A program made the translations under genes and the position numbers. Below the pieces are notes generated by a model, which had not been told where the DNA came from, searched no databases, and saw only the letters and a program-made list of their open reading frames with translations. Of a stretch of DNA of 64,000 bases, positions 37,201 to 64,000 are shown piece by piece. This stretch comes from Sphaerolaimus hirsutus (taxonomy: Eukaryota; Nematoda; Chromadorea; Monhysterida; Sphaerolaimidae), in the NCBI GenBank assembly GCA_964036195.1, contig OZ038453.1, forward strand, positions 27,532,997 to 27,596,996, read 5' to 3'. How positions within the stretch are numbered: position 1 is the first letter of the stretch; each line of letters opens with the position of its first letter.

Positions 37201-37835
37201 CCTGTGATCAACACTTATCTTTACACCTACAGAATCAGTTTCCCAAAGCTCAAAGCTTTGTAATATGTATTAAACTCAGGAAGTCATTGTTCTACAGGGT
37301 TTTTGTACAAGTGTGAATACATAAACTTGGGACACATCCAAGATCCTTGCGTTTCATACATCCTGGGATGTTTATTTGGGTAACAAAGTACCGTATTTGC
37401 TTGATTAATTCCCCCTGTTAGACACGTGAGGAAATATAACCCCCCTGAGTATGTTGACAAAAATGGCATGTTATTTGGTGAAAAAAGCATATTTCATGTA
37501 TGACTTGATAGAAGTCGTTGTTAAGCCAATCATATAAATTATCATGACTCTAATCATCAAATTATCAGTAGACACAGTGCAGCACTAATGCATTGCTATA
37601 ACACTGTGTGTGTGTATGTTTTATGGGCTTGTATGTTTCATGTAGCAATCTCTTATGAAATGCAAGGCATTTAGATGTGTGCCAAATTCATACATACTTT
37701 TTGGAGGAATTTGTTGTGGCTGTGATGATTAGATCCGATCTAAGACCTTACAATCCAACTTTCTATAACAATTTGTCTATCAAACTCATATTGTTCTCGC
37801 ATAAAAAAATTGGATTGAATCAAATGTATCATGAA

Positions 37836-38774
37836 CAGGGTTGGCAAAATCTCAGGAAAAAAACGATTAAATAAAATAAAATGGAAAATTTAATAATAAA
37901 AACAATAAAATTAAATGGAAAATTTCCAAATTTAAATCAAAATTGTAAAATAATTTGAATTTTTGTAAAAATTTTGTAAAATTGTATACAAATTCATATT
38001 TATGTAAAAATTGTAAAAAATTCATCTTTTTGTAAAAAAAAATTATTGTGTTGCTTGGGGTTCAACCTGTTTATTTGTGGAACTGGGGCAGTCCCTATAA
38101 AGTGTCAAATGTCATATTAAATGTCATGCAAAGTGTCAATTGTCATGACAAATATAAATTAAAGTGGCAACTGTCAAGCAAATTGTATCCTAATCTTATG
38201 TTTTGTATCCAAATCTTGATGTTGTTTTTGTATCAACTCTTATGTGAACATTTGGATACAAAAACAAAAGATTTGGATACCAAAAACGTAATATTTGGAT
38301 ACACAATTTATACTTTGCATGACATTTGTCATGACAATTGACACTGCTTGATATTTGAGATGTCAATTGACTCTACTTTACATTTGTAATGATAATTAAC
38401 ACCTTGCATGTTATTTTTACAAATGTGCCAGCACACTAGTAATACTTCCACTGACAATGCAAACCATTCATATCAATAATTGTAACTTAACAATTGCAAC
38501 TAGCTAAAAATACCTACTGCATGCAACTTCTGCAAAGTAATGGAAAAATTTGTCACACGTTTTTCATGTTTAGGTCTTATTATGACATTTTCTGGCCTTG
38601 CATGCAATATTCTGTTCTTTTTTGTAAAATTTCTGTTAAATTTTTGTTAAATTTTTGTTAAAGTTTATTATTTTATTAACATTTTGGAAGAAAAAAAATA
38701 TAAAATGAAATGAAACAAAAAAAATACATTTTTATACAATTTGTATACAAATGATTTTTATAACACCAACCCTG
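37836..38774. mobile_element. hAT-like element, AAAATAAAAT family, second copy
   Basis: Tips CAGGGTTGGCAAAATCTCAG and ACACCAACCCTG. The 8-bp duplication ATCATGAA lies at 37828-37835 and 38775-38782. Copy 1 is empty at about 15808 (ATCGTGAA). Same internal organisation as 36161-37200. Confidence 0.9.
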
Positions 38775-47190: not shown

Positions 47191-47566
47191 TTATGTATCC
47201 AAAAGTTGTCTATAGCAAAAAAAAAGAATTTTTTTCTGAAATGGAGTGTGGACTATGTACTTATTACATATTGCGAGCACATATGCACAAATTCTCTGTA
47301 CCAACTCAGACCGTTCTACTAAAATTACCTCGACGCCGGTGGCGAAGCGCTTGGGCTTTATTTGCAGTGATCTGTGATGGTGAAATCTTTTTATTTTTGT
47401 GCAATTGTAATTTGTGCAATTGTAATTATTATCTGAAAAAGACTCACCATTCTCAGTGTCCGGGTTTTTAGCCAGAGTTTCATCGGGCTGGTTTTCAGTC
47501 TCAACGTCGCCATTGTCGCCAGCGGCATCCGGATTTTCTTCTTGTGCAGTTTCGGTCTCGCCCTTG
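47191..47566 (-). pseudogene. Older retroelement or host frame, downstream part, split by the LTR element
   Basis: An open minus-strand frame runs from the LTR border to a TAA at 47191-47193. It starts acidic (Glu-, Asp- and Asn-rich). A good donor AATG/GTGAGT at about 47446 may end an exon earlier. Across the 4-bp target duplication it is in the same frame as the sequence following the gag zinc-knuckle stop at 63293, so both are parts of the interrupted older locus. Confidence 0.4.
47563..47566. repeat. Target-site duplication CTTG, left
   Basis: CTTG directly outside the LTR at 47563-47566, repeated at 63218-63221. A 4-bp duplication fits Ty3/gypsy integration. Confidence 0.85.
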
Positions 47567-49227
47567 TGTCAGATATTTTACGTTTTTACTAATTTTACTA
47601 GTTTCCGTTTTTACCACAAAAATACGCCACTCGTCGAATTTTGCCGCGGCAGAGAATTGTAATTTCCGGTCCCTTTGCGCTTCTAATTGTGTGCATAATT
47701 AAATAAATAATTGGTTTTATGGTACGGGGATTTTACACGCAGATCAGGAACGGCGCCAGTACCCCTTGGGGTCCTGACAGTTCCTGAGGACGGACACGGC
47801 AACTTACCAATCCCTTTCGTAACTGCTGCCGGCGGTTTACTTCGATTAGTTGTTAAAAAGCCGAAATTAATAAAATTCAAATTAAATTCAAGCAGTTAGT
47901 ATGCTTCAGGGGGACCAAGTTGGTTTTCACGGGAACTTTATTTAGTAATATAGTCAGAGTCAATTTCACAATAGCTCAAGTGAGTCGTATAGCCTCTAGT
48001 GGGTGAAAAAATGTAAAATCAGCGCGTTTTATAATCACCAAAATCTACCATAAACAAAATGAATACTAAATCAAAGACACAACAATTAACCATAATAAGC
48101 GAATCAATAAGGCAAATTCAATGATCACTGGAAAACCTTAAACATAGCGTACAAGGCACAAGTAAATTAATTAAATGCGGGAAAAATATCTAATTAAATA
48201 AAACGGGTACAAATATGAATTAAACCGAGCGTAAAGTAACTGTAATTACCATTGACGTAATTAAAATGCAATTTATCTCGTAGGTGAGTGTCGGGAACTG
48301 GGTTTCTATTCAGAGGTTACGGTACAGTCGAGAGCAGGTGGTGTGACACAAGTTATCAACCTGCGCCCCTTTAGGTGAAAAATATTTTTATAGCACGCCC
48401 GACCAAGGCCACAGAAAGAACGCTCATTTGCGGGGGTTGTTCAAGGTTATTGCATTGCCGGGTAAGGGTTGGAAACTTCGGGCCTGAACACACGCCACAA
48501 GACACTAGCACTTGTGAGTTCACCAATCACCCTGGGTGATGGGAATAATTAATTGGCACTGCTGTGCTCTTCACTATAAACTGTGCTCTGCATGTGCCTT
48601 GCAGTTGCGTGCCGACAATAATTGCCGTTTGCCACTTTTCCACCCATTACCTAGTCCTAAATAAAAATGCACTTGGTCGGGGAATTTTCTGAATGTTATC
48701 TATCGGGGCGTCTAAGCATTTAACAGAGTCAACACCTGTTAGCTTAACTAGAAACATAAAAAGCCTTTCTAATCATTCCCAGACACTGCACCCTTTTAAC
48801 CAAAAATGTAAACTTGATAAAAGCCTAATAATTATAACTTTCGAAAGTACATATTGGGAAATGCAAAAGAAAATGGAAGTATTCACTTAATTAACTCAAA
48901 AATGCGGGTAACCTAATTAGCTTAATTAATGAAACTTGAAATAAAAAGAAAAATTAGCATCACACGGGAAGCAACTAAATAATTAACGGAAAAGAAACAA
49001 TTAATAAATTCATGGCCGCAGTAGTGTCCATTCGGGCGTACCGTCCTGGGGCTGCGGCTTCGTTGGCGGATTTGCAGTGCACAGCGAACCGCACGTTCAC
49101 TGTGACTTCCCTGTGCACCGCGGGTCGTCATTCGGTCGCACATGGTCGTTCTCGAGTCGTCGGAGTGTCTGCGCAAAATTGTCGTTACGTTTTTACGCAT
49201 GATTAGTTAGCCATATTTCTACCTACA
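47567..49227 (-). repeat. 3' LTR
   Basis: 1661 bp; in element orientation it starts TGTAGG and ends CTGACA. It matches the LTR at 61557-63217 with about nine substitutions and no indel that I can see. Confidence 0.95.
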
Positions 49228-49797
49228 ATCCCACCAGCCATTAATTTTTTACCTCCGGGCTAAAAACGACATGTTCAGAAAAAGTGTTTTGCGCCGTTTT
49301 TTGGTTATTCAAAAATCATGCCTTCTCTGCATTTTTCGGTGGACGGCTGTGGCAGTCACATGCCCTGGGGGTGCAAATATGGCTCGTCTTCATTCGAATT
49401 ATGGCATCAGCTTTCCGCCGTGCCGGCTTTTTGTGCTCGAAAGTTCGAAATTTTGGTTCCCGCTCAGGACTCGATGTGAGAAAAAGTTTTTTCTTTTGTT
49501 GGAAACTGATTAATCGGATTATTAATCTGTGCTGTTTCACAGCATCGTGCCACTGCTGGATGGGCAGTTTGGAATCAACATTCAAATTACCTGCTCGACC
49601 GACACGTCGCAGACTGTGTGTGTGAAAACTGATCGTCGACAAGATTTTCTAATGGTTTTCATGGAATATTAACAAGTATGTTTTTAATTACTGGTTTTTG
49701 TTACAAGGTTGTCTGTTTCTCCTGATGACAAAAAGTTGTGCATGAATTATTAATTTGAAACTTTGATAACTGGTTTTTTGACAAAAATTGTTTCGTA
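49228..49797 (-). other. 3' untranslated stretch between helicase and 3' LTR
   Basis: About 570 bp without a convincing ORF. The bases next to the LTR (GGCTGGTGGGAT in element orientation) are only weakly purine-rich, so the polypurine tract is uncertain. Confidence 0.5.
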
Positions 49798-52700
49798 TCA
49801 ATTTTCACAATTACCATTTTCCATGTGGTGTTCTACCTGTTGCGCTGGAGCCTCCTCCGGTGGCAGTGGGATGGCCTCGACCGCGTCGTGGTGCTCGGGC
49901 GGCGGCGAGGGGGGCTCGGCTACGTTCTGCAGTGCCATGGCCGCCATGTCGTTGCTAATGGGGGAATATTCTTCATTAGGGCGGTAAACTGGTTCGACAA
50001 CGGGCACCACTTCCTCCAACACCGGCACACCCTCCTCCCGCGCGTCTGCGGAGGAGTCAAGGCCCGCGGTGGCGGTTTCAATGTCAGACAAACATTCCGC
50101 CTGCAGTTCTTCTTCGAGGGCCGGGTATCTGTCCGGTCCGACTAGTTCTTTCAAGTCGGCCCGCGGGCGCCATTCCGGAGGCCAAAATCCCAACACGTTT
50201 CCCCAAATTTGGCCTGACTCGTAAGAGTAAATCCGGTCGGCTTTGTGCTCGACCGTCAGAAACCGGTGGAAAAAGGTTGACCACAACATGGTCTCGGCGT
50301 TGGCCACCACGATGCGCACACATTTGGCGCGGGAGGTGGCTACGTTTCCCCGGGGCAACTCCGCTACAAATCCAACTCTACCATACGCCTTCTTGGGGTC
50401 GGCATCCAGCTGGGCGGAGTCGGTAGGCGGGCTGCCGCGCACGCAGGAAACGATGACCACTTCCGCTTCACGGGCCTGTGCTTTGTCGGCAGTGATCACG
50501 CGGGTGGCCCAGTAAGCCGCGTCGTGTTCTGTATGGGCTACTAGTCGACTGATTAGGGCGCGCGCCTGCGCCGCATAAAAACAGACAATTAGCAAACTAG
50601 CGGGATCGGTAAGATCTGCCCAGGGCAGGGTGGGATCTTCTTTCACTGTGGCCACGAGGTAGTCGTACAGGTGCAGGATGATGCGCAGCTCCTTCTTGTT
50701 GATAATGGACATGCCCTCTTTTGATTCGCAGCCCTGGTGCACCAGCGTCGATGACAGCATGACGCCATCCTCGAAGTCGCCAGGTGCGGGCAACATGGTG
50801 GCGCCGTGCGCTGCAGTGTCGTTGTAGGCGCGTAGCAGTCCGTTGTACGCCGCCACAGAGTTAGCCTGAATGAGCTGGCGATGCCCGCGGAACACTGTTT
50901 CCAAGTGAACCACGGGACATAGTTGATATTGTGTGAGCCTATCAATGAGGGTGGGGTCGGGTTTCAGGACAGGCTCCACCCAGTCTTGCACGCGAATCAT
51001 ACGCGTCAGTTGTTTACTGTCTCCAAATAGAAGTAGCATGCCGTTCACTGGGAGCTGAGCTGCCTGAACCACGCTAATTACGGCAGCGTCAGACGCCAAA
51101 GACGCTTCGTCAATAATTACCGCACACGCAGTCACACTTTTTATACGGGCGTCGTGGGCGGAGTCTAAAGTGACATGGATTTGACCGGGCTGCACCACTT
51201 CCAAGAACACCCGGTGCAGCCTGACCGTAGCCCTGACATATTTAGACAGCGCCCTACGCAGCACCTTACCCCAAAATCCCTGGTCAGCTAAACTAGCCTC
51301 ACCAGCCCGGGCACCCGCCACGCCTGCCTCGAAGTCATCGAATGGCTGCTCATCTCCGTCTTCGGCGGTGAGAAATGGCACTTGTTCGGTCAGCTGTGCG
51401 CGTATGACGGCGTCGTCCGTGCAGTTGTTGATAATTTCGTCCACCAGCTCGTAGTCCTTCTTGGCGCCGTCGTACTTTTCCAGCGCTGCCGTCCATTCGG
51501 GGCTGAGGCGGACGATGTTGTGGCCGGTTCGCTGTACTAGGGTGTGCAGGGTTGGCAATTGGGTCGCGGGGGTGGTATTATAAGTGGGGTCAGTTTCCCA
51601 CATGGGGCTCAAAACGCGCACCGGAAATGCCGCTCTTAATTTCAAAAATTCTTCAAAACCCTCCAGTTTTTGCATTTCAGAAAATGGCGTATCAGCCATA
51701 GCGGTCCATTTCGCGCGCTCCCGCAACAAAACTTCCAAAGCCCCAAAAATATCCCGCTGCCCTAATTTATTCAGATTGGTCAGGGCCCGCGCGCCTTCGT
51801 CAGCCGCCGAGTTGACCGTGCACGTGATGAGCGTCGAATGGTATTTGGCGTTCGGCTGCTTGTCCGATGGCAAGTCGGAGCCCGCGCGCACCCTGGGTCT
51901 CGAGTTATAATAATTATAGCCGCGTGAACACACATACGCCAGTTGATTTTGTGTGGTCGTCTTCCCGGACCCGAAAGGCGAGTCACACATAATCAAAAGG
52001 GGTTTGCGCATTCGCACGGCTGTGATCACAGCTCCTAAAACTTCTACCTGCCCCTGCTGCGGCAAAAACTCACCTAATTTGGCCTGAATCATTTGTTCGT
52101 TTTTTCCTCTGAACAATGATTCGTACAACTCGTTAGCCTCGCGGCTAATTAGCGCCCAGTCGGTTTTGTCATCCAGCAGACGCAAATTCAATATCACCGC
52201 TAATTGGATTTGCGCCTCCAGGGTGAGTACTTTTGACCCCTGAACCACTTTTGGCACCCAGCCGACCGGTGCTTTGTTCAGGGCGGCTTGCAGTGACCGC
52301 ATGGTTCGGTCATAATTGGGTGAGTCGTTTGAGCCGCGCACCATGTATCTTCCACTCTCCAGAGTACGGGGCAGCGCTGACTGCGACGCCGCCATGTCCA
52401 ATTTTGCACGCAGCATTGTAGTGGTTGGCTCTGATTCCACACTGGTAATTCTGACTGATAGATTGGGGCTACCCGCCGCTGGTTTGTCTTCGTCTGGTCT
52501 GGCCAGCACCAAGCTCAGCACTGACATGGGCGTCGCCTGGTTCAACAGCTGTGTCTGCGTGTTCACCCGCTCCAGCAAACGCACGCGCTGCTCTTCTGGT
52601 CCTTCGAAAGTGTCAGCTTGTAATTCTTCTGGGTCCGGGCGGCGCACCATAATATCGCATGCAGTGCCCTGCGGCGTGTGCTCCCAGGACACATGTGCGC

Positions 52701-53766
52701 ACACATCCGTTGCGCGTTTCGCCCGAAACCGCAAAAATGACTCGTTATAGCAGTGGGCCGCTGCTAAAATACCCAATTTATACCTGAGAAATGCGTCCAT
52801 ATTGTCTCGGTTCTCTGTGTCCGGCTGGATGCCCGTTGTGCTGATGTCCTTGGCTGTGGCGACCTGCAGCCCGTACGCATGGCCGTAGAATTCCTCGCCG
52901 AACACGTCCAAATCGTTCAGGTCGTGATATTCGACGTGGGCCAGCCCCAACTGCCCAGCACTCAAATTTTCCACTCTGCTGTCACTCACGTATTCTCTGT
53001 GCAAAATGACCAACTTTTCCGGCCCGGCATCGCCCCGCTCCGCCGCGCCCAGCGGTTCCAGATTTTTGTAATTCGACGGCGTGAAGGCCGCTCGCAGCCG
53101 CGCCGTTTTCCAGTCGCTCGTGTAGGGCTGGTAGCCGGAAGTGTCGCCGCGTGTCAATGTACGTGCCGCTTGAGTGACGCGCCGCGTGCCCTGCGTACTC
53201 ACGACCACGGGGGCGGCAACGTTTAAGGGGCACTTTGTCTGATTACCCCATATCGCGACGCCGGTAAACTCCCAGTACCTGGGATTTTCTATTTTTTGTG
53301 CGATTGCGGTCGCCGAGAAACGCATCCCGTGGCGCACCAGGGGCAGAAACATCGAGGGGTGTTGTTTCTGAATTCTCGCGCACAAATCCACCAGCTGGGT
53401 GGTCCGTTTGTCCCTAGCCGCCTTGGCCCGCTTATTCGAATAATAAAAATACGGATAGGCTTCATCCGCATTCACCCACTGCTCGTTTTCACTGAGTATC
53501 GCCATCGTCTGCTCAGAAATTCTCACATGGCACTGATACTCAACATGCCCGTCGGCGCCCGAGTCAATATACACCCTATCTACCCAACCTTCGAATTTCC
53601 CTCTGCTAGGGTAGATTTCCGGTCCATTTTGCATCTGCTGCGCGCAGTAAAGTTGTCGCGGGGGGATGGTTCCGCCGCCGCAGGCACCATGTGTATTTGT
53701 CTCCTTGGATTTAATGGGCGGGGCGTCTGCACCTTCAAATGGGCGTTTGCGAGAGGCCGAAGCCAT
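49798..53766 (-). CDS. Superfamily 1 (Upf1-like) helicase carried by the LTR element
   Basis: An intact 1322-codon ORF starting at ATG 53766. Signature motifs are all present and correctly ordered: Walker A DSPFGSGKTT (about residue 595), motif II VIIDEAS (about 883), motif III GDSKQL (about 915), motif IV VFRGH (about 958), motif V TADKAQAREAEVVIVSCVR (about 1092), and motif VI GNVATSRAK (about 1140). This is the DNA2/NAM7/Upf1-like layout (AAA_11/AAA_12 type). Residues 1-580 form an N-terminal region I do not recognise, and the tail after 1200 is acidic and Pro-rich. It lies 226 bp after the integrase stop and follows a strong acceptor TGTGTTTTTAG at 53879-53880, so a spliced subgenomic mRNA is plausible. 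An RNA/DNA-unwinding role in replication or in escaping RNA surveillance is inference only. Confidence 0.9.
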   Translation of the reverse strand: MASASRKRPFEGADAPPIKSKETNTHGACGGGTIPPRQLYCAQQMQNGPEIYPSRGKFEGWVDRVYIDSGADGHVEYQCHVRISEQTMAILSENEQWVNADEAYPYFYYSNKRAKAARDKRTTQLVDLCARIQKQHPSMFLPLVRHGMRFSATAIAQKIENPRYWEFTGVAIWGNQTKCPLNVAAPVVVSTQGTRRVTQAARTLTRGDTSGYQPYTSDWKTARLRAAFTPSNYKNLEPLGAAERGDAGPEKLVILHREYVSDSRVENLSAGQLGLAHVEYHDLNDLDVFGEEFYGHAYGLQVATAKDISTTGIQPDTENRDNMDAFLRYKLGILAAAHCYNESFLRFRAKRATDVCAHVSWEHTPQGTACDIMVRRPDPEELQADTFEGPEEQRVRLLERVNTQTQLLNQATPMSVLSLVLARPDEDKPAAGSPNLSVRITSVESEPTTTMLRAKLDMAASQSALPRTLESGRYMVRGSNDSPNYDRTMRSLQAALNKAPVGWVPKVVQGSKVLTLEAQIQLAVILNLRLLDDKTDWALISREANELYESLFRGKNEQMIQAKLGEFLPQQGQVEVLGAVITAVRMRKPLLIMCDSPFGSGKTTTQNQLAYVCSRGYNYYNSRPRVRAGSDLPSDKQPNAKYHSTLITCTVNSAADEGARALTNLNKLGQRDIFGALEVLLRERAKWTAMADTPFSEMQKLEGFEEFLKLRAAFPVRVLSPMWETDPTYNTTPATQLPTLHTLVQRTGHNIVRLSPEWTAALEKYDGAKKDYELVDEIINNCTDDAVIRAQLTEQVPFLTAEDGDEQPFDDFEAGVAGARAGEASLADQGFWGKVLRRALSKYVRATVRLHRVFLEVVQPGQIHVTLDSAHDARIKSVTACAVIIDEASLASDAAVISVVQAAQLPVNGMLLLFGDSKQLTRMIRVQDWVEPVLKPDPTLIDRLTQYQLCPVVHLETVFRGHRQLIQANSVAAYNGLLRAYNDTAAHGATMLPAPGDFEDGVMLSSTLVHQGCESKEGMSIINKKELRIILHLYDYLVATVKEDPTLPWADLTDPASLLIVCFYAAQARALISRLVAHTEHDAAYWATRVITADKAQAREAEVVIVSCVRGSPPTDSAQLDADPKKAYGRVGFVAELPRGNVATSRAKCVRIVVANAETMLWSTFFHRFLTVEHKADRIYSYESGQIWGNVLGFWPPEWRPRADLKELVGPDRYPALEEELQAECLSDIETATAGLDSSADAREEGVPVLEEVVPVVEPVYRPNEEYSPISNDMAAMALQNVAEPPSPPPEHHDAVEAIPLPPEEAPAQQVEHHMENGNCEN

Positions 53767-53878
53767 TATAATTATAACAATGTGATAAAATAATTAATTA
53801 CGAAGTTTTATGAACGGGGAAAGTAATAAGAACTCGTGCGGTCCAGTTGCCCGTGGGCAAAAGGGGTGCACGAGCTTC

Positions 53879-53880
53879 CT
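53879..53880 (-). promoter_or_regulatory. Candidate 3' splice site upstream of the helicase ORF
   Basis: GTGTGCGTGTGTTTTTAG in element orientation, a U-rich tract ending in AG, about 113 bases before the helicase ATG. It would allow helicase expression from a spliced RNA. Not tested. Confidence 0.35.
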
Positions 53881-53992
53881 AAAAACACACGCACACTTTC
53901 ACACACACTTCATACCTGTTATACCTGGTTCCGTGTTGTTTGACGCGACGGCGATGATCGTAACGGCTAATTAATCAGCTAATTAATCAATT

Positions 53993-56740
53993 TTAGTCGT
54001 CGCCGTATAATTCACTGTAAGAAGGGGGAATTAAATATTCACTGGTTGCCTTGCAACGATCTGCATGAACTACATAAATTTTCTTATTAATATTGTTGAA
54101 TAAAGTCACTAATGGGTGGGCATAATCAATGCACTCATACGGGCCGATAAAGCGAGGCGCGAATTTCTTACTGGGGCCTGTCAACTGAGTAATACGCGGC
54201 GTGTATACGCGTACCGCTTGCCCGCGTTGCACATTCAATCGGCGCGCACGGCGATTGGCGTAAAATTGCTCCTTTTGCTGCGCCTTTGCTAAAGTGGTGT
54301 GCGCTGCTTCGCGTGCTGTGGTCAGACGCGCGCCTAATTCATTTATAAGAGCGCGCTTATGCGGCAATGAGGGCAATGCCTCAGTGTCGGGGGGAGGCTC
54401 GATCATACGCTCCCACATAGACGCAGCAGGCTTGCCAAATAGCAACGCATAAGGGGTGGTTTGCAAGGAAGGGTGTTTTGACGTATTGTACGCATGTACA
54501 GCGGCGCCTAAATGTATGTCCCAATCGTCATGTGTACGATTTATGTAGTGAGATACTATTTCCATCAGAACACCATTCCTACGTTCCACCATTCCGTTGC
54601 TCTTGGGGGTGTACGCAAATGATGTATGTTGGGTCGCGTTCAAATATTGTAAAAGCTTGGCAAAAGTGCCCTCGGTAAAACTAGGGGCGTTATCACTGAG
54701 TATAATGGCCGGCACACTAAATATAGGCAAAATGTGCAACAGAAATGCAAATGATACTGTGTCTTGTTTTATGTCGGGAACGGGCACGGCAATTCCAAAA
54801 CGTGTACACTGATCAACAAATACTAACACATGTCGGTTTCTGCGTTTCGTGGTTAGTAAAGGTCCTATTGCGTCTACTGCTATCACATCACCTGGCCTTT
54901 TGGCTACCTGGCGGCACACCATTTGAGTTCGCATTGCCGCTCTGAGACCTTTCTTGGCGTTGCACGAAGGGCAGGTGGCAACCCAGCGCGCACTTTCTGG
55001 CCGCATTCCTGGAAACCACGCGAATTCCTGTAATCTTTCAAATGTTTTTATTATTCCTAAATGGCCCGCCGTGGGGTGATTGTGAGCTAATTCTAACACG
55101 AATGGAACTAATTCCGATGGAATACACACTGGGTCGTATAATTGTACACCTGGTATCTGGGATGTTCCCGCTTGTCGGCGTAATAAACCGTATTGATCAA
55201 TAAAATACGGTGCGGCGCTGTAAAAATTATCCGCGCGACACACTTCTATAGTTGTGGCTATGTATGGTTCTTCTGCTTGTAGCCGCTTTAATTTGTCAAC
55301 CGGAGTCATGGGGGGTAGCGCCATGATCGTACTGCGCTTGTTTACACTCGTCAAACCCGGAACAACTTCATTTCCGGCTCCTGAACCACCAGCCATTGTT
55401 CCGGTTCCAGGCGCTTCCGCATTCCGCTGCCGCTCTCGCAGCCCGGGTGACTCTGCCTCTTTTCGTCCGCGCGTCCGGTCGCTGATTGGTCGCAGTAACT
55501 CCGCCTCCTCATTTACGCTGATTGGCTGGTACGCTGCCCTGCTCGCCGCAGCTACCGTAACCTGCTTATCGTGCGGGATAGCGATTTCACGGCACGTAAC
55601 TTGTGCGAACTGCTCAAAAGCCTCATCCAGGTCCTTTTTCTCGTCGAATACCACTGGTGCGTCTTGTCTTCTGGATAATGCATCTGCTAATTCGTTGCTT
55701 TTTCCCCGCAAATGCTTGAACGTAATTTGGTACGGCGTAATTGCTAAAGCGAACTTGTGCAGCATGGCGTGCGGGGTAGTCTCTAAATTAGGATTCTTTA
55801 CCCACGAAATACTCTTGGCGTCAGTCCAGACTTCAAAGGGTTGTCCCGCCAGATAACAATGCCAATTACGTATGCTTTCGTAGATTGCACACGCTTCCAG
55901 GGAAATCGCTGGCCATTTGCTTTGGGTGGCACCTAACTTCCGGCTGTAAAAAGCACATGCATGTAGTATTTTCTCGTCCTCTGCTCGTTGTGCCAGTACG
56001 CCCGCAACGGCGATTTTAGAGGCGTCCGTGATAATTATAAACATGCGTTTAGGGTCGGGAAATTGCAAACAGGGGCTTCCTAACAATGCTTCCTTGAGCT
56101 TATGGAAAGCTTCCAGTGCTTTGGGTTTTGTTGTCAAATCCACTGGGGTGTCGCTATTGTAATTTTCTCTTGGTCCCGTGCGCGTGAGATTTGACAAAGG
56201 TACAGCTAACTCTGCGCACCTGTGAATCATGCGTCTAAAAAACCCTATGGCTCCCAGAAAACCCTTAACTTCCTTTACGGTAGTGGGTACCGGCCAGTCC
56301 TGTATTATGTGGTGTTTGTCATCTGGAACGCACACGCCGTCACGGCCAATCATAAATCCTAGAAAACGTACAGCTGTGACGCGTGCGAAGAAACACTTTT
56401 TTGGGCTAATTTTGAAATTATTCCTAATTAATCTTTCCAATACCTGCCCTATGTCATATAAATGTGTTTCCCAGGTTGCACTATAAATCAGTAAATCGTC
56501 GATGTATAATAACACATTTCGATGTATTAAGCCGGCCATAGCTAATTCAAAACAGCGCTGCGCTAAACTAGGTGAGCATTTTAATCCCATTGGTAAACGT
56601 TTCAGTTGAAATTGTCCAAAAACATTTCTGAATGACGTGATGTGTCGATCATCTGGATGCAACGCAATGTTATAGAAAGCTTGATTTATGTCAGCACTGC
56701 TAAAAATACTTGCAGCTACATAAAGATTCGACTGTTTCAT
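53993..56740 (-). CDS. pol: Pol, second part: RT, RNase H and integrase
   Basis: The RT continues from motif A (SSADINQAF) through YIDDLLIYS, the catalytic box. RNase H follows with ITDAS and the conserved FYSRKL, WTDAKSISW and ELADALSR blocks. Integrase has an H-H-C-C zinc module (HNHPTAGHLG ... CPSC), then a D,D-35-E core: VDAIGPL, ILSDNAPSF, and YTPKSNGMVERRNG. Near the C-terminus is a GPY/F-like module (FIGPYECIDYAHP). This set and order are those of Ty3/gypsy (Metaviridae). The frame is +1 relative to the preceding ORF and overlaps it by 41 bases, so protein continuity needs a frame change at 56700-56706. The apparent ATG at 56740 lies within RT and is unlikely to be a true start. Confidence 0.9.
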   Translation of the reverse strand: MKQSNLYVAASIFSSADINQAFYNIALHPDDRHITSFRNVFGQFQLKRLPMGLKCSPSLAQRCFELAMAGLIHRNVLLYIDDLLIYSATWETHLYDIGQVLERLIRNNFKISPKKCFFARVTAVRFLGFMIGRDGVCVPDDKHHIIQDWPVPTTVKEVKGFLGAIGFFRRMIHRCAELAVPLSNLTRTGPRENYNSDTPVDLTTKPKALEAFHKLKEALLGSPCLQFPDPKRMFIIITDASKIAVAGVLAQRAEDEKILHACAFYSRKLGATQSKWPAISLEACAIYESIRNWHCYLAGQPFEVWTDAKSISWVKNPNLETTPHAMLHKFALAITPYQITFKHLRGKSNELADALSRRQDAPVVFDEKKDLDEAFEQFAQVTCREIAIPHDKQVTVAAASRAAYQPISVNEEAELLRPISDRTRGRKEAESPGLRERQRNAEAPGTGTMAGGSGAGNEVVPGLTSVNKRSTIMALPPMTPVDKLKRLQAEEPYIATTIEVCRADNFYSAAPYFIDQYGLLRRQAGTSQIPGVQLYDPVCIPSELVPFVLELAHNHPTAGHLGIIKTFERLQEFAWFPGMRPESARWVATCPSCNAKKGLRAAMRTQMVCRQVAKRPGDVIAVDAIGPLLTTKRRNRHVLVFVDQCTRFGIAVPVPDIKQDTVSFAFLLHILPIFSVPAIILSDNAPSFTEGTFAKLLQYLNATQHTSFAYTPKSNGMVERRNGVLMEIVSHYINRTHDDWDIHLGAAVHAYNTSKHPSLQTTPYALLFGKPAASMWERMIEPPPDTEALPSLPHKRALINELGARLTTAREAAHTTLAKAQQKEQFYANRRARRLNVQRGQAVRVYTPRITQLTGPSKKFAPRFIGPYECIDYAHPLVTLFNNINKKIYVVHADRCKATSEYLIPPSYSELYGDD
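56700..56706 (-). other. Frame change inside RT at a T-run followed by TAG
   Basis: In element orientation the upstream ORF ends TAT TTT TAG, and the downstream RT frame is entered by a +1 shift at this point, just before motif A. It is either a one-base indel in a five-T run (mutation or sequencing error) or a +1 slip at UUU before a stop. The position in the middle of a catalytic domain favours an indel. Confidence 0.7.
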
Positions 56741-59700
56741 CTAAGCGGGGTAATGGGAATTGGGGAGCGTGCAAAACAGCGTTCAGGCGTCTGTAATCAA
56801 TTACCATCCGCTTCGATCCATCCGGTTTGGATACCACCAACGTGGGGGCACAATACGGGCTCATACTGGGTTCCACGATGTCGTGCTCGATGAGGCATCT
56901 CAAATGATTTTCTAAGTATTGCTGATCATCCAGACTCAACCGGTACATTCTGCATGCAATTGGTTTTTTATCCACTAATTGCAACCGGTAGTCCACTAAT
57001 TCGCTGTAGCCGATGTCGTACTTATGTCGGGCAAAAGCTTCTTTGTACTGCAAAATCACCTTTTTCAGTTCCTCTCTGCGTTCGTCCGTCAATGTTTCTG
57101 GCACGGTGAATTCCATCACGTGTCCATCTGGACATGCAACTTGCAGTGGGGGTCCTAATTTGTCTTCGGCTACTTTGGGAGGGGGTTCAGTCGCTTGAAC
57201 CTGTCGACACACATCTCTGTCATAGCACTGCTTCACCCATTCAGCGGGGGGGTCTCCAGGTTTCACCTTCAGCACGCAGTCCACTGGTTCGACCACTGCA
57301 ATGCGCTGTCCTACCTGTAGCACTACGGGCTGGTTTCGCACATTTGCACATCTCACCTGAAACACGGGGGCACTGGTTTCATACGCCGCTGAAGCGGCCA
57401 TAACTCCACAGCGTTCGCCTACCGTATCCAATCCCATGACCGTAAATAACTTTTCATCCATGGGGGCAGATAATTTCGCCGTCACTAGCGCTTCATGTCT
57501 AGCCAGAATTTCTATTTTTTCGTTCACAATAGCGTAAATTCTGCGCTGCTGCACTTCCGGGTCGGGGTTGTCAAACGGAATTATCGCGTTAGCCGTAGGG
57601 ATTCGTAGTTCCCTTGCAGGTAGGTCTACCACCATGTGCCGCAGGACGTCTGCGCCAATTAGGATTTCACCTGCTAATCCGTTCACTGCCTGAAACACAA
57701 TCCCGAAGGTGTGGTTTCCCATGGTTACCGGTATTTCCATCTGTCCCAATACCAAAAGTTTCGAATCTGCTGCACACCTGAGGGCTCCGATAGGTGAAAC
57801 TTCATCATGCTTAGTAGCCTTTTCCTTGTGCCGCATCAGCACGTCTCTGTTGCATAATGAACGCATGGCGCCTGTGTCCAGTAGACATCTTCGATATTCT
57901 CTCCCATCGATGGTTATGGTAATGGATGGGCTGTAGTACACATGCACGATTTCTTCACGTCGGTTGGCTACTTGATGTATGTTATCTCTTTCTTCCGTCG
58001 AGAAAGTGATCATGCATACCGATTCTTCTTCCAGATCGCATTTTCTGTTGATACTGTATTGTATAGCGGGAAAACGACGCGTGCCCGTGAGTGCGGGCAT
58101 GCCACTTGGCATTCCCACGCACGGGTTAATTACCGTTCTTACCTTCACCTGTTCGCTAGGGCGGTCCTCAGCCAGTTCGACGATGACATTGGATTTTTCT
58201 TCTGTCTTTGGTCGTTTTCTGATTTTTTCCTTTGCTCGGTTCACCATAGTCACGGCCATTTCCGGCGCTGCAGCCATGAGCGCGGCTAGTAGATACTGCA
58301 TGGTGACTAGTGCACATATTAGGTAAATCCATACTTGTAGCCAGGTGCGCCAGGTGTCAAAATCCCACCATCCCAGCGCCAATACCGATTTTGCCAAGGT
58401 TCGATGCTTTTGCATGTGTGATTCCACCTTCGGCTCCGCCCCCTGCGTAATTTGCCGCACGATTGAATATGCATGCCATACGTCATTTAGGGTGGTCGTC
58501 GGCAATAGTTCTGACAAGTTGTACATGGTCGTGGCGGCAAAAATCTGATGATGCACATCCTTAACCTTTTCCTGTTGCCATTTCTGCGGGAAACTGTGTG
58601 TGTTATACATAGGTAAATGTTCCAGGCCACCTACTTCCGGTAGATATTTGTACCACTGTCCATTTAACATTACCACACGATTGTGAGCATTGGTGCATGA
58701 TCCCGGGATCGCTTGAAAGTGCAAAATGTTTGTCAACCTATTCATGTGCAACGTCACATTTTGCCCGTGCACACTAACTTGCACAGGTACTGTTTCGTAA
58801 CATTCTGGAGACTTTTCCTCTTTCATGATCTCGTAGGTTTTTACCGCGAAGCATTTGTGAACCAAAAATCCGTCCGGCGCGGGTTTGGCAATTATTTCAT
58901 TATCATTCATGTACCAGCGGGCTGTCGTAGTGGCATGTTCACTCATAGCCAGGCGCACAAATTCTTGGAAGTGTTGCACATTCTTGCAGGTGGCTACGGC
59001 CTGTGCACGCATGGTTTGTTCTGCTGTTTCGTATACCGCCTGCATGCTGGCTGCTAATTGGCCTGTGCTCACTATTCCCAGCGTGGGTCGCCCTTGCGCT
59101 CGTTTTTGTCTGACGCTTCGAATCACTGCCTTTTCAAATGGGGCCACTACTATATCCTGATCTGATTTCCATAGTTTGATGCCGCATGATTCAACCTCTT
59201 CATGTGCTCTGAAAGACAGTGATAGTGTGTGATCATCGGCTAGCCAGATATCCTGTCTAATGCATCCATGCATTTCGCGCCATTTTTCATAAGGGCATTC
59301 CGCCTTCGGGTTCGGTTTCCATGTTAATTGGCTGCCGTCTTCTAGTGTGCATGCACCCATTTCATAATTGCACTTGCTAACCTCACCCAGCGTGCTTTGC
59401 ATGGTGTTAGCTCCATATCTCATTCGTACTTCCCCTCGAAACAGCCCACAGTGTGGCGTCGTTTCACTCACCCATTTGCAACAGTACAATCCATGTCCTG
59501 AGTAGCTAACATTGGTGGGGTATTGGGTGTCCCATGCGTTGTCCAAATCACTCACAGGGGTCATAGGCCCATTATTGCATTTATGATATTTAATCATGCC
59601 TTCGCACTCGGCGGCGCCCACAGATCGGGGGTTAGAATCAAACTTTTCCAGCGTGACGTCGCCCCAGAAGTTATGATACGTCCTTGCCGTTCTGGTAGAG

Positions 59701-59888
59701 GCCACACACCTGTGCGCTGCCGCACGATATTCTACCATATTTCGTTTGTAGATGGTCAGTGTCAATTTTCGAGGCCGTTCTAATGATGCCGTAGTGTCCA
59801 CAATAGCCGTGCAATTTGGTAGGGGGGGGTACGTGTATAAATCGTAGTGATCCGTCAAGTCACTGCAGAGCAGTGGAAACGAGGGCAT
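56700..59888 (-). CDS. Envelope-like ectodomain fused to protease and N-terminal RT
   Basis: The first AUG is at 59888, but the frame is open about 60 bases further upstream, overlapping gag in the -1 frame. Roughly the first 520 residues form a Cys-rich region with N-glycosylation sequons (NCT, NVS, NVT, NLS), a basic RQKR motif near residue 268, and a single hydrophobic membrane segment (about 525-548). A basic tail follows. That is the plan of a type I viral glycoprotein, though no clear signal peptide is visible and I cannot assign its family. Then comes an aspartic protease with LLDTGA (about residue 677) and ILIGADVL (about 755), and the RT fingers (VVSKPDGSKRMVIDYRRLN) up to the stop at 56700. 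Finding an envelope-like domain in frame ahead of protease is unusual. An acceptor at 59863-59864 could allow separate expression. Confidence 0.7.
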   Translation of the reverse strand: MPSFPLLCSDLTDHYDLYTYPPLPNCTAIVDTTASLERPRKLTLTIYKRNMVEYRAAAHRCVASTRTARTYHNFWGDVTLEKFDSNPRSVGAAECEGMIKYHKCNNGPMTPVSDLDNAWDTQYPTNVSYSGHGLYCCKWVSETTPHCGLFRGEVRMRYGANTMQSTLGEVSKCNYEMGACTLEDGSQLTWKPNPKAECPYEKWREMHGCIRQDIWLADDHTLSLSFRAHEEVESCGIKLWKSDQDIVVAPFEKAVIRSVRQKRAQGRPTLGIVSTGQLAASMQAVYETAEQTMRAQAVATCKNVQHFQEFVRLAMSEHATTTARWYMNDNEIIAKPAPDGFLVHKCFAVKTYEIMKEEKSPECYETVPVQVSVHGQNVTLHMNRLTNILHFQAIPGSCTNAHNRVVMLNGQWYKYLPEVGGLEHLPMYNTHSFPQKWQQEKVKDVHHQIFAATTMYNLSELLPTTTLNDVWHAYSIVRQITQGAEPKVESHMQKHRTLAKSVLALGWWDFDTWRTWLQVWIYLICALVTMQYLLAALMAAAPEMAVTMVNRAKEKIRKRPKTEEKSNVIVELAEDRPSEQVKVRTVINPCVGMPSGMPALTGTRRFPAIQYSINRKCDLEEESVCMITFSTEERDNIHQVANRREEIVHVYYSPSITITIDGREYRRCLLDTGAMRSLCNRDVLMRHKEKATKHDEVSPIGALRCAADSKLLVLGQMEIPVTMGNHTFGIVFQAVNGLAGEILIGADVLRHMVVDLPARELRIPTANAIIPFDNPDPEVQQRRIYAIVNEKIEILARHEALVTAKLSAPMDEKLFTVMGLDTVGERCGVMAASAAYETSAPVFQVRCANVRNQPVVLQVGQRIAVVEPVDCVLKVKPGDPPAEWVKQCYDRDVCRQVQATEPPPKVAEDKLGPPLQVACPDGHVMEFTVPETLTDERREELKKVILQYKEAFARHKYDIGYSELVDYRLQLVDKKPIACRMYRLSLDDQQYLENHLRCLIEHDIVEPSMSPYCAPTLVVSKPDGSKRMVIDYRRLNAVLHAPQFPLPRLDETVESLCSCKYF

Positions 59889-61441
59889 GGTAGTCGCGCC
59901 CGCACCCGGCAATTTTGTCCCGGGTCCGTGGGCCGCGCCACTTCAGATGTAGCTGACGAGCTTCTTGAAGACGCCGGCGAGCGGGATCGAGCGCGTCGCT
60001 GCGTAACAGTTCTCACCTGGTTTGTTCCAGCTGCCGACGGGGGCGCCGCTGGTACCGTTGATGACTGTAAAGGCGCTGTTTGACCATTGGTCAGCACTAT
60101 CGGCTGATGGCCACTGGCCGGTGAATTTCCTCCCAGCGTCGCGTTCTGATTTTGTAGGGCTTGATTATGTTGCTGGTACGCAGTCGTCAGGTCAACTATA
60201 TCATCGCCATGTGCGCTGTGGTGCGCTTCGAATTCCTGCAGAAAATGTTCCACCCTAGGTACCTCGGCGACTGGGTCACTTCCCCATAAATTCATAGCAA
60301 TTTTAATTAGTGTCACCATACGCAAGTCCCCTGGTTCACCATTCTGTGAGAACGCGCCAACCGGTCTCGCCTGACTCATCATGTTTGCCCATTTCTTTGC
60401 GGCTTCACATGCCTTTTTGGGTGTCCATTGTGCACAGGATGGCGTTGTTTGCACCGGGTCCAGGTCCATTATGGTAGCTTGGTAAATTAAATTCGCATTA
60501 TTGACCTTTGCGTACCTGTCTTCCAGCGCCGGAGCCGCCGTCTGGTTTGCGCCATTGTTTGTCATTCTGCTAGCGGAACTGCTAATAATTATCACGGGGG
60601 GTTTACTTGAGAATTCGGTCTTAATTAACTGGCGTCTAGCCTTTGCAGTTGCGCTCTGCGATCTCGACTGGTCGCTCGATAAGTTCCGACTGCTGTTGCC
60701 TGACACGTCTCTCGGCGTCGACGTGCTCTTCGGAGGGCTTAACTGCAGCGCCGGGGAAGTGTCTCCACTCTGTGCCGCTGTCTCCAACAGTTCCTCTACG
60801 GTATTTTCAATCACGGGAAATTGATCTGCAGTAGCTCCAAGCTCAGCTGCAATCAAAGGATAATCACGTTGGATCGACGGCTGCCCTAGAGGCTCGCTGT
60901 CACCAACATATCCGTCTGAACCGACTTCAGAACCCGATCGCACTCCAGGCGATATGGATGAGCTGCCCGCGCTCCAACCCAATGTCCTCCGAAGCTTAGA
61001 CCACTTACCTGTCTTACCTGCTTCCTTTCCTGCAGCTTGTCTGCTTGTCCCAGGCGCTTCTTCGGCTTCTGCGCTGGACGTTAGCTGCCGTGCCGCTGCC
61101 GGTACAGCTGGCGTCTTCCACTGACTGAAACTGTCTGGCGCAGGCCCTGCACCTTCAACCGTTGATAACCTGATTACCGGGGTGTCCTCAGCTGTCTGTC
61201 CAGACCAGCGTTGACTTTCACTCTCCTCTAGCGCTTCCGGCGCTTCTGTTTCAGGGTTAACCGAATCGTTCGACTCACTGTCTCCTGCTTGACTCTCAGC
61301 TGCAGCAAGTTGTGCGTCCACTTCTTGCCCAGCCTTCTGTTGTCGCGCGCGCCTTCGTGCTTGTTTTTGCTTCTCCAACGCAGCGTGCCAAACTTGTTCT
61401 ATGGTGTCCCCTTGTAAGCTTGCTGGCCCCCTCGATCTCAA
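59855..61441 (-). CDS. gag: Gag-like ORF without an early AUG
   Basis: Open for about 528 codons from a TTG at 61441; the frame is open still further up, almost to the primer-binding site. The N-terminal half is Ala-, Glu-, Ser- and Gln-rich and low complexity. Residues about 300-420 look like a helical capsid-type region (WTPKKACEAAKKWANMMSQ, LIKIAMNLWG). The C-terminus is Arg/Ser-rich (RRARSRSPASSRSSS), a likely nucleic-acid-binding tail replacing the usual zinc knuckle. The first in-frame AUG is only at 60565, so translation begins at a non-AUG codon, on a spliced leader, or yields a shorter protein of about 236 residues. It ends at 59855, overlapping the next ORF. Confidence 0.65.
   Translation of the reverse strand: MRSRGPASLQGDTIEQVWHAALEKQKQARRRARQQKAGQEVDAQLAAAESQAGDSESNDSVNPETEAPEALEESESQRWSGQTAEDTPVIRLSTVEGAGPAPDSFSQWKTPAVPAAARQLTSSAEAEEAPGTSRQAAGKEAGKTGKWSKLRRTLGWSAGSSSISPGVRSGSEVGSDGYVGDSEPLGQPSIQRDYPLIAAELGATADQFPVIENTVEELLETAAQSGDTSPALQLSPPKSTSTPRDVSGNSSRNLSSDQSRSQSATAKARRQLIKTEFSSKPPVIIISSSASRMTNNGANQTAAPALEDRYAKVNNANLIYQATIMDLDPVQTTPSCAQWTPKKACEAAKKWANMMSQARPVGAFSQNGEPGDLRMVTLIKIAMNLWGSDPVAEVPRVEHFLQEFEAHHSAHGDDIVDLTTAYQQHNQALQNQNATLGGNSPASGHQPIVLTNGQTAPLQSSTVPAAPPSAAGTNQVRTVTQRRARSRSPASSRSSSATSEVARPTDPGQNCRVRARLPCPRFHCSAVT
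59863..59864 (-). promoter_or_regulatory. Candidate 3' splice site at the start of the envelope-like region
   Basis: CTCGTTTCCACTGCTCTGCAG in element orientation, a pyrimidine-rich tract ending in AG, located at the beginning of the envelope-like ORF and just before the gag stop. It could supply a spliced envelope message with a signal peptide from elsewhere. Confidence 0.35.
59918..59924 (-). other. Candidate -1 slippery heptamer CCCGGGA
   Basis: In the gag frame it is read C CCG GGA, which fits X XXY YYZ, and the following ORF is in the -1 frame. Y=G is not a typical efficient slippery base, and no downstream structure was assessed. Confidence 0.25.
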
Positions 61442-61536
61442 TTCCCTTTGGGGTGACTCGTTATCCGTGAAGCCGTTTTTTGTAGAGGCGTTGATCAGGC
61501 GCCCCAGACAGAAAACTTTATGGCTTGCTTAGGAAA

Positions 61537-61554
61537 CCACTCGCTACGCTACCA
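61537..61554 (-). other. Primer-binding site
   Basis: TGGTAGCGTAGCGAGTGG in element orientation starts two bases after the 5' LTR ends. The leading TGG is complementary to a tRNA CCA end. The tRNA is not identified; the first seven bases would also suit an initiator Met tRNA, but the rest diverges. Confidence 0.6.
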
Positions 61555-61556
61555 GT

Positions 61557-63217
61557 TGTCAGATATTTTACGTTTTTACTAATTTTACCAGTTTCCGTTT
61601 TTACCACAAAAATACGCCACTCGTCGAATTTTGCCGCGGCAGAGAATTGTAATTTCCGGTCCCTTTGCGCTTCTAATTGCGTGCGTAATTAAATAAATAA
61701 TTGGTTTTATGGTACGGGGATTTTACACGCAAATCAGGAATGGCGCCAGTACCCCTTGGGGTCCTGACAGTTCCTGAGGACGGACACGGCAACTTACCAA
61801 TCCCTTTCGTAACTGCTGCCGGCGGTTTACTTCGATTAGTTGTTAAAAAGCCGAAATTAATAAAATTCAAATTAAATTCAAGCAGTTAGTATGCTTCAGG
61901 GGGACCAAGTTGGTTTTCACGGGAACTTTATTTAGTAATATAGTCAGAGTCAATTTCACAATAGCTCAAGTGAGTCGTATAGCCTCTAGTGGGTGAAAAA
62001 ATGTAAAATCAGCGCGTTTTATAATCACCAAAATCTACCATAAACGAAATGAATACTAAATCAAAGACACAACAATTAACCATAATAAGCGAATCAATAA
62101 GGCAAATTCAATGATCACTGGAAAACCTTAAACATAGCGTACAAGGCACAAGTAAATTAATTAAATGCGGGAAAAATATCTAATTAAATAAAACGGGTAC
62201 AAATATGAATTAAACCGAGCGTAAAGTAACTGTAATTACCATTGACGTAATTAAAATGCAATTTATCTCGTAGGTGAGTGTCGGGAACTGGGTTTCTATT
62301 CAGAGGTTACGGTACAGTCGAGAGCAGGTGGTGTGACACGAGTTATCAACCTGCGCCCCTTTAGGTGAAAAATATTTTTATAGCACGCCCGACCAAGGCC
62401 ACAGAAAGAACGCTCATTTGCGGGGGTTGTTCAAGGTTATTGCATTGCCGGGTAAGGGTTGGAAACTTCGGGCCTGAACACACGCCACAAGACACTAGCA
62501 CTTGTGAGTTCACCAATCACCCTGGGTGATGGGAATAATTAATTGGCACTGCTGTGCTCTTCACTTTAAACTGTGCTCTGCATGTGCCTTGCAGTTGCGT
62601 GCCGACAATAATTGCCGTTTGCCACTTTTCCACCCATTACCTAGTCCTAAATAAAAATGCACTTGGTCGGGGAATTTTCTGAATGTTATCTATCGGGGCG
62701 TCTAAGCATTTAACAGAGTCAACACCTGTTAGCTTAACTAGAAACATAAAAAGCCTTTCTAATCATTCCCAGACACTGCACCCTTTTAACCAAAAATGTA
62801 AACTTGATAAAAGCCTAATAATTATAACTTTCGAAAGTACATATTGGGAAATGCAAAAGAAAACGGAAGTATTCACTTAATTAACTCAAAAATGCGGGTA
62901 ACCTAATTAGCTTAATTAATGAAACTTGAAATAAAAAGAAAAATTAGCATCACACGGGAAGCAACTAAATAATTAACGGAAAAGAAACAATTAATAAATT
63001 CATGGCCGCAGTAGTGTCCATTCGGGCGTACCGTCCTGGGGCTGCGGCTTCGTTGGCGGATTTGCAGTGCACAGCGAACCGCACGTTCACTGTGACTTCC
63101 CTGTGCACCGCGGGTCGTCATTCGGTCGCACATGGTCGTTCTCGAGTCGTCGGAGTGTCTGCGCAAAATTGTCGTTACGTTTTTACGCATGATTAGTTAG
63201 CCATATTTCTACCTACA
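61557..63217 (-). repeat. 5' LTR
   Basis: 1661 bp, TGTAGG...CTGACA in element orientation, nearly identical to 47567-49227. The transcription start should lie in it, but I could not pick a TATA box with confidence. Confidence 0.95.
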
Positions 63218-63964
63218 CTTGATAGGCTCCACATTTGCTAGTAGCAGTTGCTGTACTGTGTCTACTAGTTCTGACACATGCACCTCCACTTTTCATGGAG
63301 CAAATGGCCCAGTCATGGGTTTTCTCTCCACACCCATGGATGGAGTGAATTTTGGGTTGAAAAATGGAGTGCTTTGTTTTTTCATGACCGGATTGTTATG
63401 GGTGGCTGTTGGGCCTACCATTTTGACACCATCTGCAGATGATGGCAAATGGGTTACATTTCCTTTTTTGGTGCAATTCCCTGCCCAGTGTCCCATTTTG
63501 TTGCAATTCAAGCATTTCAAAAAACGATCCCTGTTAAATGGCTTTTGCTGCCCCCCCTGGAGTCTGGGTTCTCACAAAATTGGGGTGACTTATCCCCGGT
63601 TTTGCCACAAAGCCGCCTGGTTGTGCCACTTCACTCCGAGGCTTTGGCCCTTTGGCTCTGCCCATTATGAGTCTTTTCAAGTTGAATAAATACGTGTCCA
63701 GACGCTGGGCTAGGTGACAGTCCCTTTGTCAATGTCATTTTGTAATGTCAGCAGGACATTTTCATCAAACCACGTAGTTTTGATGCCATTCATAAATTGG
63801 GTGAGAATGATGAAATTTTTCTCATCATCAGCCATTCTTTTATGGTATTCCAATGGCAACTTTGCCATCAATCTTGCACAAAACATGATGCAGGTGTCAT
63901 TTTCCTGTTGAATGAGCCTCCACCATTGGTGCACTGTCAAGGGCTGAGTGTGCGTTTTGAACAT
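63218..63964 (-). pseudogene. gag: Decayed gag with CCHC zinc knuckle of an older retroelement
   Basis: A gag-like helical segment (63964-63710) is followed, after two frame changes, by a CLNCNKMGHWAGNC knuckle (C-x2-C-x4-H-x4-C) at about 63475-63515, and a TGA at 63293. The sequence continues in the same frame towards the LTR border. The 15.65-kb element inserted about 75 bp after that TGA. The type of knuckle and sequence are compatible with a copia-like gag, but that is a weak assignment. Confidence 0.65.
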
Positions 63965-64000
63965 GGCGGAAAATTGCTTGTTGATAAACTTGTGGTCATT

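Follow-up and report, generated by a model that had tools for sequence, protein, structure and literature searches.

A 64,000-nt stretch of the Sphaerolaimus hirsutus genome (GCA_964036195.1, OZ038453.1, positions 27,532,997-27,596,996, forward strand), called the window throughout, carries on its minus strand a Ty3-like long terminal repeat (LTR) element in which a helicase open reading frame (ORF) lies between the integrase and the 3' LTR. Comparison with other copies in the same genome has shown that this helicase is an integral gene of the element, which belongs to a young, env-bearing family of Ty3-like LTR elements with many copies. Coordinates are window positions unless a contig (C9, C65 and so on) is named, and L-numbers denote pieces fetched from the same genome. 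The parts of the window element are as follows.

47567-63217, minus strand: Ty3-like LTR element, 15,651 bp, delimited by the LTR pair and the flanking duplication
47563..47566, no strand: target site duplication (TSD), CTTG on the plus strand, 3' LTR side, from flank comparison
47567..49227, minus strand: 3' LTR, 1661 bp, TG...CA, 1652/1661 positions identical to the 5' LTR
49228..49797, minus strand: non-coding stretch from the helicase to the 3' LTR
49798..53766, minus strand: helicase ORF, 1322 aa, ATG start
53879..53885, minus strand: TTTTTAG, possible 3' splice site by pattern, 119 nt ahead of the helicase ATG
53993..56740, minus strand: ORF P0002, 915 aa, with the remaining part of the reverse transcriptase (RT), RNase H and integrase (H2C2, rve), from ORF and Pfam
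56700..59912, minus strand: ORF P0003, 1070 aa, with glycoprotein, transmembrane segment, protease (weak, below cut-off) and first part of the RT
59855..61441, minus strand: gag N-terminal remnant, 528 aa, without Pfam match, from ORF and Pfam
61537..61554, minus strand: candidate primer binding site, starting with TGG, 2 nt past the 5' LTR
61557..63217, minus strand: 5' LTR, 1661 bp, from LTR comparison
63218..63221, no strand: TSD, CTTG on the plus strand, 5' LTR side, from flank comparison

Transcription of the window copy would run from the gag remnant through P0003 and P0002 to the helicase, all on the minus strand. The helicase ATG lies 226 bases past the integrase stop codon and the helicase ends 570 bases ahead of the 3' LTR; the distance from the pol stop to the 3' LTR is 4.8 kb. 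The LTR pair is 99.46% identical (9 mismatches and no gap in 1661 bp). A TG...CA LTR pair with a short TSD, the order protease, RT, RNase H, integrase (the protease scoring below its cut-off), a Ty3-type RNase H and an H2C2 integrase are all features of Ty3/gypsy elements, and the best PDB matches of the RT are the RTs of LTR elements and of Ty3. The candidate primer binding site also follows the 5' LTR in 10/10 other copies read, being 2 nt shorter in one of them. An earlier interpretation made from the letters of the window (the sequence-only reading) had already put the helicase between integrase and 3' LTR, inside the LTRs and the target duplication and in the orientation of pol, and the coordinates agree; it named no strand, which is the minus strand for both ORF and element. 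It also rightly described an uninterrupted ORF beside almost identical LTRs, and its view of the locus as an LTR element holds, with the correction that the window copy is incomplete in gag.

The helicase and its relatives

By its profile match and motifs, the ORF at 49798..53766 encodes a helicase of superfamily 1 (SF1), from the Upf1/Sen1/IGHMBP2 group. Its residues 939-1157 match Pfam AAA_12 with an E-value (E) of 8.1e-25 (88 bits versus a cut-off of 27), and the NCBIfam model for the IGHMBP2 family matches residues 870-1169 with E 5.6e-14, which is below its equivalog cut-off. Motifs I, Ia, II (DEAS), III (GDSKQL), IV, V and VI are present in order when read by eye, in agreement with the full SF1 motif set that the sequence-only reading had assigned to a 1322-codon ORF. 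Their pattern is that of the Upf1 group. Five of the motifs, all read by eye, were placed as follows.

51955..51984, minus strand: helicase motif I (Walker A)
51094..51123, minus strand: helicase motif II (DEAS)
50995..51036, minus strand: helicase motif III (GDxxQL)
50434..50499, minus strand: helicase motif V
50299..50349, minus strand: helicase motif VI

With UPF1, Sen1 and IGHMBP2 the protein shares the SF1 motifs, namely DEA[AS], GDxxQL, a QxRE-like motif V and an arginine motif VI. It differs from them in its low identity, in the spacing of about 220 residues from motif Ia to motif II, and in having no visible cysteine-rich N-terminal domain. A single-sequence search of PDB with the helicase core placed it closer to Sen1 (1.4e-6) than to UPF1 (0.0018), followed by Nam7, the yeast UPF1 (0.032), and SMUBP-2 (0.22). 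The label "Upf1-like" from the sequence-only reading is thus apt for the group, as judged by AAA_12 and the motifs, and less so for the closest solved relative, which is Sen1 ahead of UPF1. Viral_helicase1 (PF01443) stayed below its cut-off (13.4 bits versus 21). An alignment-free AlphaFold2 prediction of the helicase core came out with low confidence (pLDDT 33, pTM 0.21), and matches of the N-terminal part to norovirus protease (E around 0.8) were dismissed as chance.

A word-filtered search of a protein database with the whole protein and with residues 570-1200 found no helicase relative at E 0.001. Since the same database does contain eukaryotic relatives of the RT, the best of them at 34% identity, this absence is informative, though limited by the word filter. 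The search of IMG/VR returned nothing for the helicase, nor for two other ORFs. Exons of UPF1 type in the host genome (C65 and C14) align with the helicase over 96-114 positions at 26-28% identity, too low for a recent copy of host UPF1. These two host loci, C65:86011-86712 and C14:4125120-4125530, are nearly identical to each other and one of them lies on a 91-kb contig, so that they represent either a duplication or an unmerged haplotype.

Copies of the element and selection on the helicase

Copies were sought in the nematode's own 348-Mb genome, and all counts are scored matches out of larger candidate lists: with the window copy included, 35 of 611 candidates for the whole helicase protein, 150 of 454 for the AAA_12 profile and 43 of 2235 for the glycoprotein-protease-RT ORF; and 68 of 1557 for the PF24664 profile discussed below. 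The sequence-only reading had made its case depend on the helicase occurring in other copies, and among the copies scored it does. All but two of the 150 AAA_12 matches have the score and range typical of the element, the top two being the host UPF1-type exons, and the reported frame reaches at least 1300 aa in 99 of these 148. The 35 whole-helicase matches are 99-100% identical over the full length, and 34 of them lack an internal stop.

Linkage to the element is equally regular. Among 30 helicase loci fetched for the analysis of linkage and selection, one being the window copy, integrase lies upstream in 30/30 and an LTR directly downstream in 29/30; in the remaining copy, L010, no LTR was found within 1.5 kb of the helicase. 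From the other end of the element, the helicase lies downstream and on the same strand in 43/43 scored matches of the glycoprotein-RT ORF, at a distance of 8954-8995 bp in 41 of them and of 13.6 and 21.6 kb in the other two. Ten other copies were read to their ends: the 3' LTR edge is exact in 10/10, the 5' edge could be located in 9/10, and 4-bp TSDs with eight different sequences flank eight of them. No TSD was found in the remaining two, one of which has differing flanks while the other is the copy whose 5' edge was not located. LTR pairs of five other copies are 99.76, 99.76, 99.88, 99.88, and 100% identical. Different TSDs together with near-identical LTRs indicate separate recent insertions, each of which brought the helicase along. 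The sequence-only reading had called the helicase cargo carried through retrotransposition: the carriage is supported by independently inserted copies, whose TSDs differ, and by purifying selection, whereas "cargo" is better replaced by integral gene.

Selection was estimated from codon-aligned sequences by the Nei-Gojobori method over 435 pairs among the 30 copies. For the helicase, the nonsynonymous and synonymous divergences (dN and dS) are 0.0040 and 0.0898, giving a dN/dS of 0.044, where the copies are those with the top helicase protein scores, a choice that favors open frames and lowers dN to some degree. Neutral evolution of the helicase codons, which would have refuted the sequence-only reading, is not what these copies display. 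By part, dN/dS is 0.036 in the core, 0.048 in the N-terminal 560 residues and 0.069 in the tail. The 3'-terminal 423 codons of the ORF for integrase, a part not selected by its own score, yield 0.040 in the same 30 copies. Variants found in a single copy have normalized nonsynonymous to synonymous (N/S) ratios of 0.138 in the helicase and 0.170 in the integrase, and variants shared among copies have ratios of 0.028 and 0.024, respectively. Lower ratios in shared than in single-copy variants are expected if transmitted lineages are constrained while lone insertions decay. The helicase is kept by purifying selection about as strict as that on the integrase. At the DNA level, the helicase of the window is 96.7-99.1% identical to the 29 other copies and the non-coding stretch at 49228..49797 is 88.1-98.4% identical to them; the window helicase lacks one codon that is present in 29/29 of the others.

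The glycoprotein and the frame change within the reverse transcriptase

According to the sequence-only reading, Ty3/gypsy elements normally have env or nothing where the helicase lies. The helicase does occupy the usual place of env, yet the element also has an env-type gene, which is located between gag and protease. The features concerned, together with the frame change discussed below, are the following.

58632..59405, minus strand: class III fusion glycoprotein domain (Monjiviricetes_fusion, Pfam PF24664), in the frame of the protease and the start of the RT
about 58263-58343, minus strand: transmembrane segment within P0003
56699..56708, minus strand: frame-change site TAT TTT TAG C within the RT, read in 21 copies

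The match to PF24664 has E 6.2e-7 with the whole ORF and 1.5e-7 with the domain part alone. Glycoprotein and transmembrane segment (within 58263-59912) share one frame with the protease and do not follow pol. In the gag region the window copy falls short of L063 by 1855 bp, and it lacks the capsid, the zinc knuckle and a stretch resembling a signal peptide. In L063 and L064, an uninterrupted frame leads from gag through the capsid, the zinc knuckle and a hydrophobic, signal-peptide-like stretch into the glycoprotein frame. Retrotrans_gag matches L063 above its curated cut-off (3.7e-6), and the zinc knuckle of L063 scores below its cut-off (0.012), its CCHC pattern being recognized by eye. The frame around the glycoprotein ORF is at least 2200 aa long in 34 of the 43 scored copies, as a full gag ahead of it would give; in three of these 34 a single TGA interrupts the match.

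Matches to PF24664 elsewhere in the genome lie in frames of up to 6806 aa (for example C1:17083501-17083923), and, judged by such matches, the genome contains several families of env-bearing elements. A second Ty3-like family, of which one copy was read, is found at C9:26946200-26965900 (L066 and L067). Its frame of 5,836 aa has the order gag, zinc knuckle, glycoprotein, protease, RT, RNase H and integrase, a stretch of about 2,700 aa between gag and the class III glycoprotein matches nothing in Pfam, and no recognizable helicase was detected in the pieces read, which include about 3.3 kb past the pol frame. The position of the glycoprotein ahead of the protease is thus common to at least two families, and the helicase was seen in one. 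Another element with a PF24664-type glycoprotein, L065, appears BEL/Pao-like by eye.

The frame of P0003 stops inside the RT at TAT TTT TAG C, and the RT continues in the +1 frame. The window copy and 20 further copies (L078-L097) all share this stop, and the second frame is open in each (21/21), which speaks against damage to the window copy as its cause. In other copies a frame of 2227 aa (1157 + 1070) ends there as well. Counted by hand, 15/16 variable columns past the site are third codon positions when the second frame is read, and 9/13 ahead of it are third positions of the first frame; this bias on each side indicates translation of both frames. The simplest account, and a probable one, is programmed +1 frameshifting at the slippery TTT before the stop, the alternative being that splicing removes the frame change from the RNA. 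Conservation of the site itself does not exceed chance: it sits within 30 invariant columns, a run that 3242 of 20000 shuffles also reach. Downstream of the site, no RNA fold was found that exceeds those of shuffled sequences.

Other features of the window lie around and outside the element. A broken gag-like stretch with a CCHC knuckle recognized by eye (63219-64000, minus strand) suggests that the element inserted into or beside another retroelement. A fragment at 5543-6247 (minus strand) matches DNA_pol_B_2 (E 9.8e-8) and is perhaps a remnant of a Maverick/Polinton-type element or of a virus. Related repeats occupy 36385-38591, where units of the type TCATGACAATTGACACTTT are abundant and copies lie about 1.6 kb apart.

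Possible roles of the helicase

Being encoded outside the polyprotein, with a start codon of its own, the helicase would be expressed in trans, from its own and probably spliced mRNA, in the manner of accessory proteins; the TTTTTAG ahead of it sits at the start of a stretch conserved across the 30 copies. The protein would then load on the unspliced element RNA, which would measure about 16-17 kb where gag is complete, and remodel its protein coat. Most ribosomes would be expected to terminate at the early stop within the RT. UPF1 surveillance (nonsense-mediated mRNA decay, NMD) acts on early stops and long 3' ends, and an RNA with this RT stop and with 4.8 kb past the pol stop would be of the kind that it attacks. 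The helicase would allow export, translation and packaging of the long RNA instead of its decay. A parallel exists in Cer1 of Caenorhabditis elegans, whose protein CERV is encoded between pol and the 3' LTR and is needed for export of the genomic RNA (PMC10309623). With the early stop, the long 3' end and this parallel, a role in trans, in which the helicase would remodel or protect the long genomic RNA, is favored over help in reverse transcription, and the latter over suppression of silencing; the favored role is nonetheless put forward tentatively, with less than even confidence.

Several points weigh against it. The argument from NMD is drawn from general knowledge, and the candidate splice site is a pattern. 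The constraint on the helicase, estimated from copies chosen by score, shows that it matters to the element without telling its role. AAA_11, the companion domain in the Upf1-like group, stays below its cut-off of 27 (18.4 bits with the whole protein and 20.9 bits with the core alone), Pfam recognizes no domain in the N-terminal 560 aa, and a cysteine/histidine-rich domain of UPF1 type is not visible there, residues 1-560 containing eight scattered cysteines and no CxxC.

A packaged helicase might instead serve as a replication cofactor that helps the RT through structured RNA, or that aids strand displacement during plus-strand synthesis or integration, a role that seems possible but unlikely. 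The unusual length of the element (15.65 kb in the window, with 1855 bp more in the gag region of L063) and a constraint close to that of the integrase would be in line with it, and cooperation with the RT has been proposed for the helicases of insect long interspersed nuclear elements (LINEs; PMC5563155). However, the helicase is encoded outside the gag-pol frames, beyond the integrase stop, 226 nt and with its own ATG, so that packaging would need a separate signal. We also know of no reverse-transcribing virus that has its own helicase. In animals, Upf1-like helicases of the host take part in silencing, which would suit a suppressor that unwinds element RNA or strips it when it is double-stranded or bound by small RNAs, or that acts as a decoy of silencing helicases such as MOV10, Armitage or ZNFX-1. 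The same has been argued for helicase-bearing LINEs, for which a role in RNA quality control was raised as well (PMC5563155). As MOV10, Armitage and ZNFX-1 are absent among the PDB matches of the helicase (whether the PDB library contains them was not checked), this suppressor role appears somewhat less likely still.

A recently captured host UPF1 gene that still performs a host-like job would account for the motif pattern of the Upf1 group, but the low identity of the helicase to the exons on C65 and C14 and the lack of database relatives at E 0.001 make it improbable. Least probable of all is a gene that was captured once and hitch-hikes without use to the element. The second env-bearing Ty3-like element (L066, L067), with no helicase in the pieces read, would be compatible with such a passenger; against it stand the dN/dS and the shared-variant N/S of the helicase, both near the integrase values, and the frames of at least 1300 aa kept in 99 of 148 matches.

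In relation to known systems, the element resembles env-bearing Ty3/gypsy elements (Metaviridae, such as the errantiviruses) in its TG...CA LTRs, 4-bp TSD and tRNA-type primer binding site candidate, in the capsid and zinc knuckle of gag (in other copies), in the order protease, RT, RNase H and integrase, and in the presence of an env-type gene. It differs from them in the helicase ORF at the usual place of env, in the class III glycoprotein that shares one frame with gag and protease and lies between them, and in the frame change inside the RT. Anakin elements, as described in PMC7642597, likewise combine an LTR element with a glycoprotein of the chuvirus/Monjiviricetes kind, but they are BEL/Pao elements, whereas the present one has a Ty3-like pol, the glycoprotein ahead of the protease and an added helicase; the Anakin arrangement of a BEL/Pao pol followed by the glycoprotein is not found in the window element. 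The TRAS/Jockey LINEs are retrotransposons that gained and preserve an SF1 helicase, which according to PMC5563155 is of the Viral_helicase1 type and lies inside ORF1 or ORF2; here it is a separate ORF of an LTR element and of the Upf1-like AAA_12 type. Cer1 is Ty3-like as well, has no stop between gag and pol and carries an accessory ORF between pol and the 3' LTR, but PMC10309623 describes no obvious homology of CERV beyond Caenorhabditis, and the word "helicase" is absent from the text of that paper. Helicases in LINEs (PMC5563155) and chuvirus-type glycoproteins in BEL/Pao elements (PMC7642597) are thus already published. Searches of the open-licence literature, outside which most subscription papers fall, listed no helicase-bearing LTR element.

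The chances are about evenly balanced that these copies represent a retrovirus-like lineage with its own essential SF1 helicase, acting on the genome or ribonucleoprotein and selected like the integrase, which would make it the first reverse-transcribing virus-like group so equipped; such a lineage would hold an env-type domain in its gag-pol frame and reach RT and integrase via +1 frameshifting in the RT. The general view is that retroviruses and LTR elements make use of the helicases of their hosts, and a selected helicase of their own is unusual for elements of the Ty3-like LTR type. Two further traits are unusual as well, namely the position of the glycoprotein, which separates gag from protease, and the change of frame within the RT. 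A family that has its own helicase in many young copies would let one ask which step of the life of an LTR element needs a helicase, and whether surveillance of UPF1 type pressures such elements into evolving counters.

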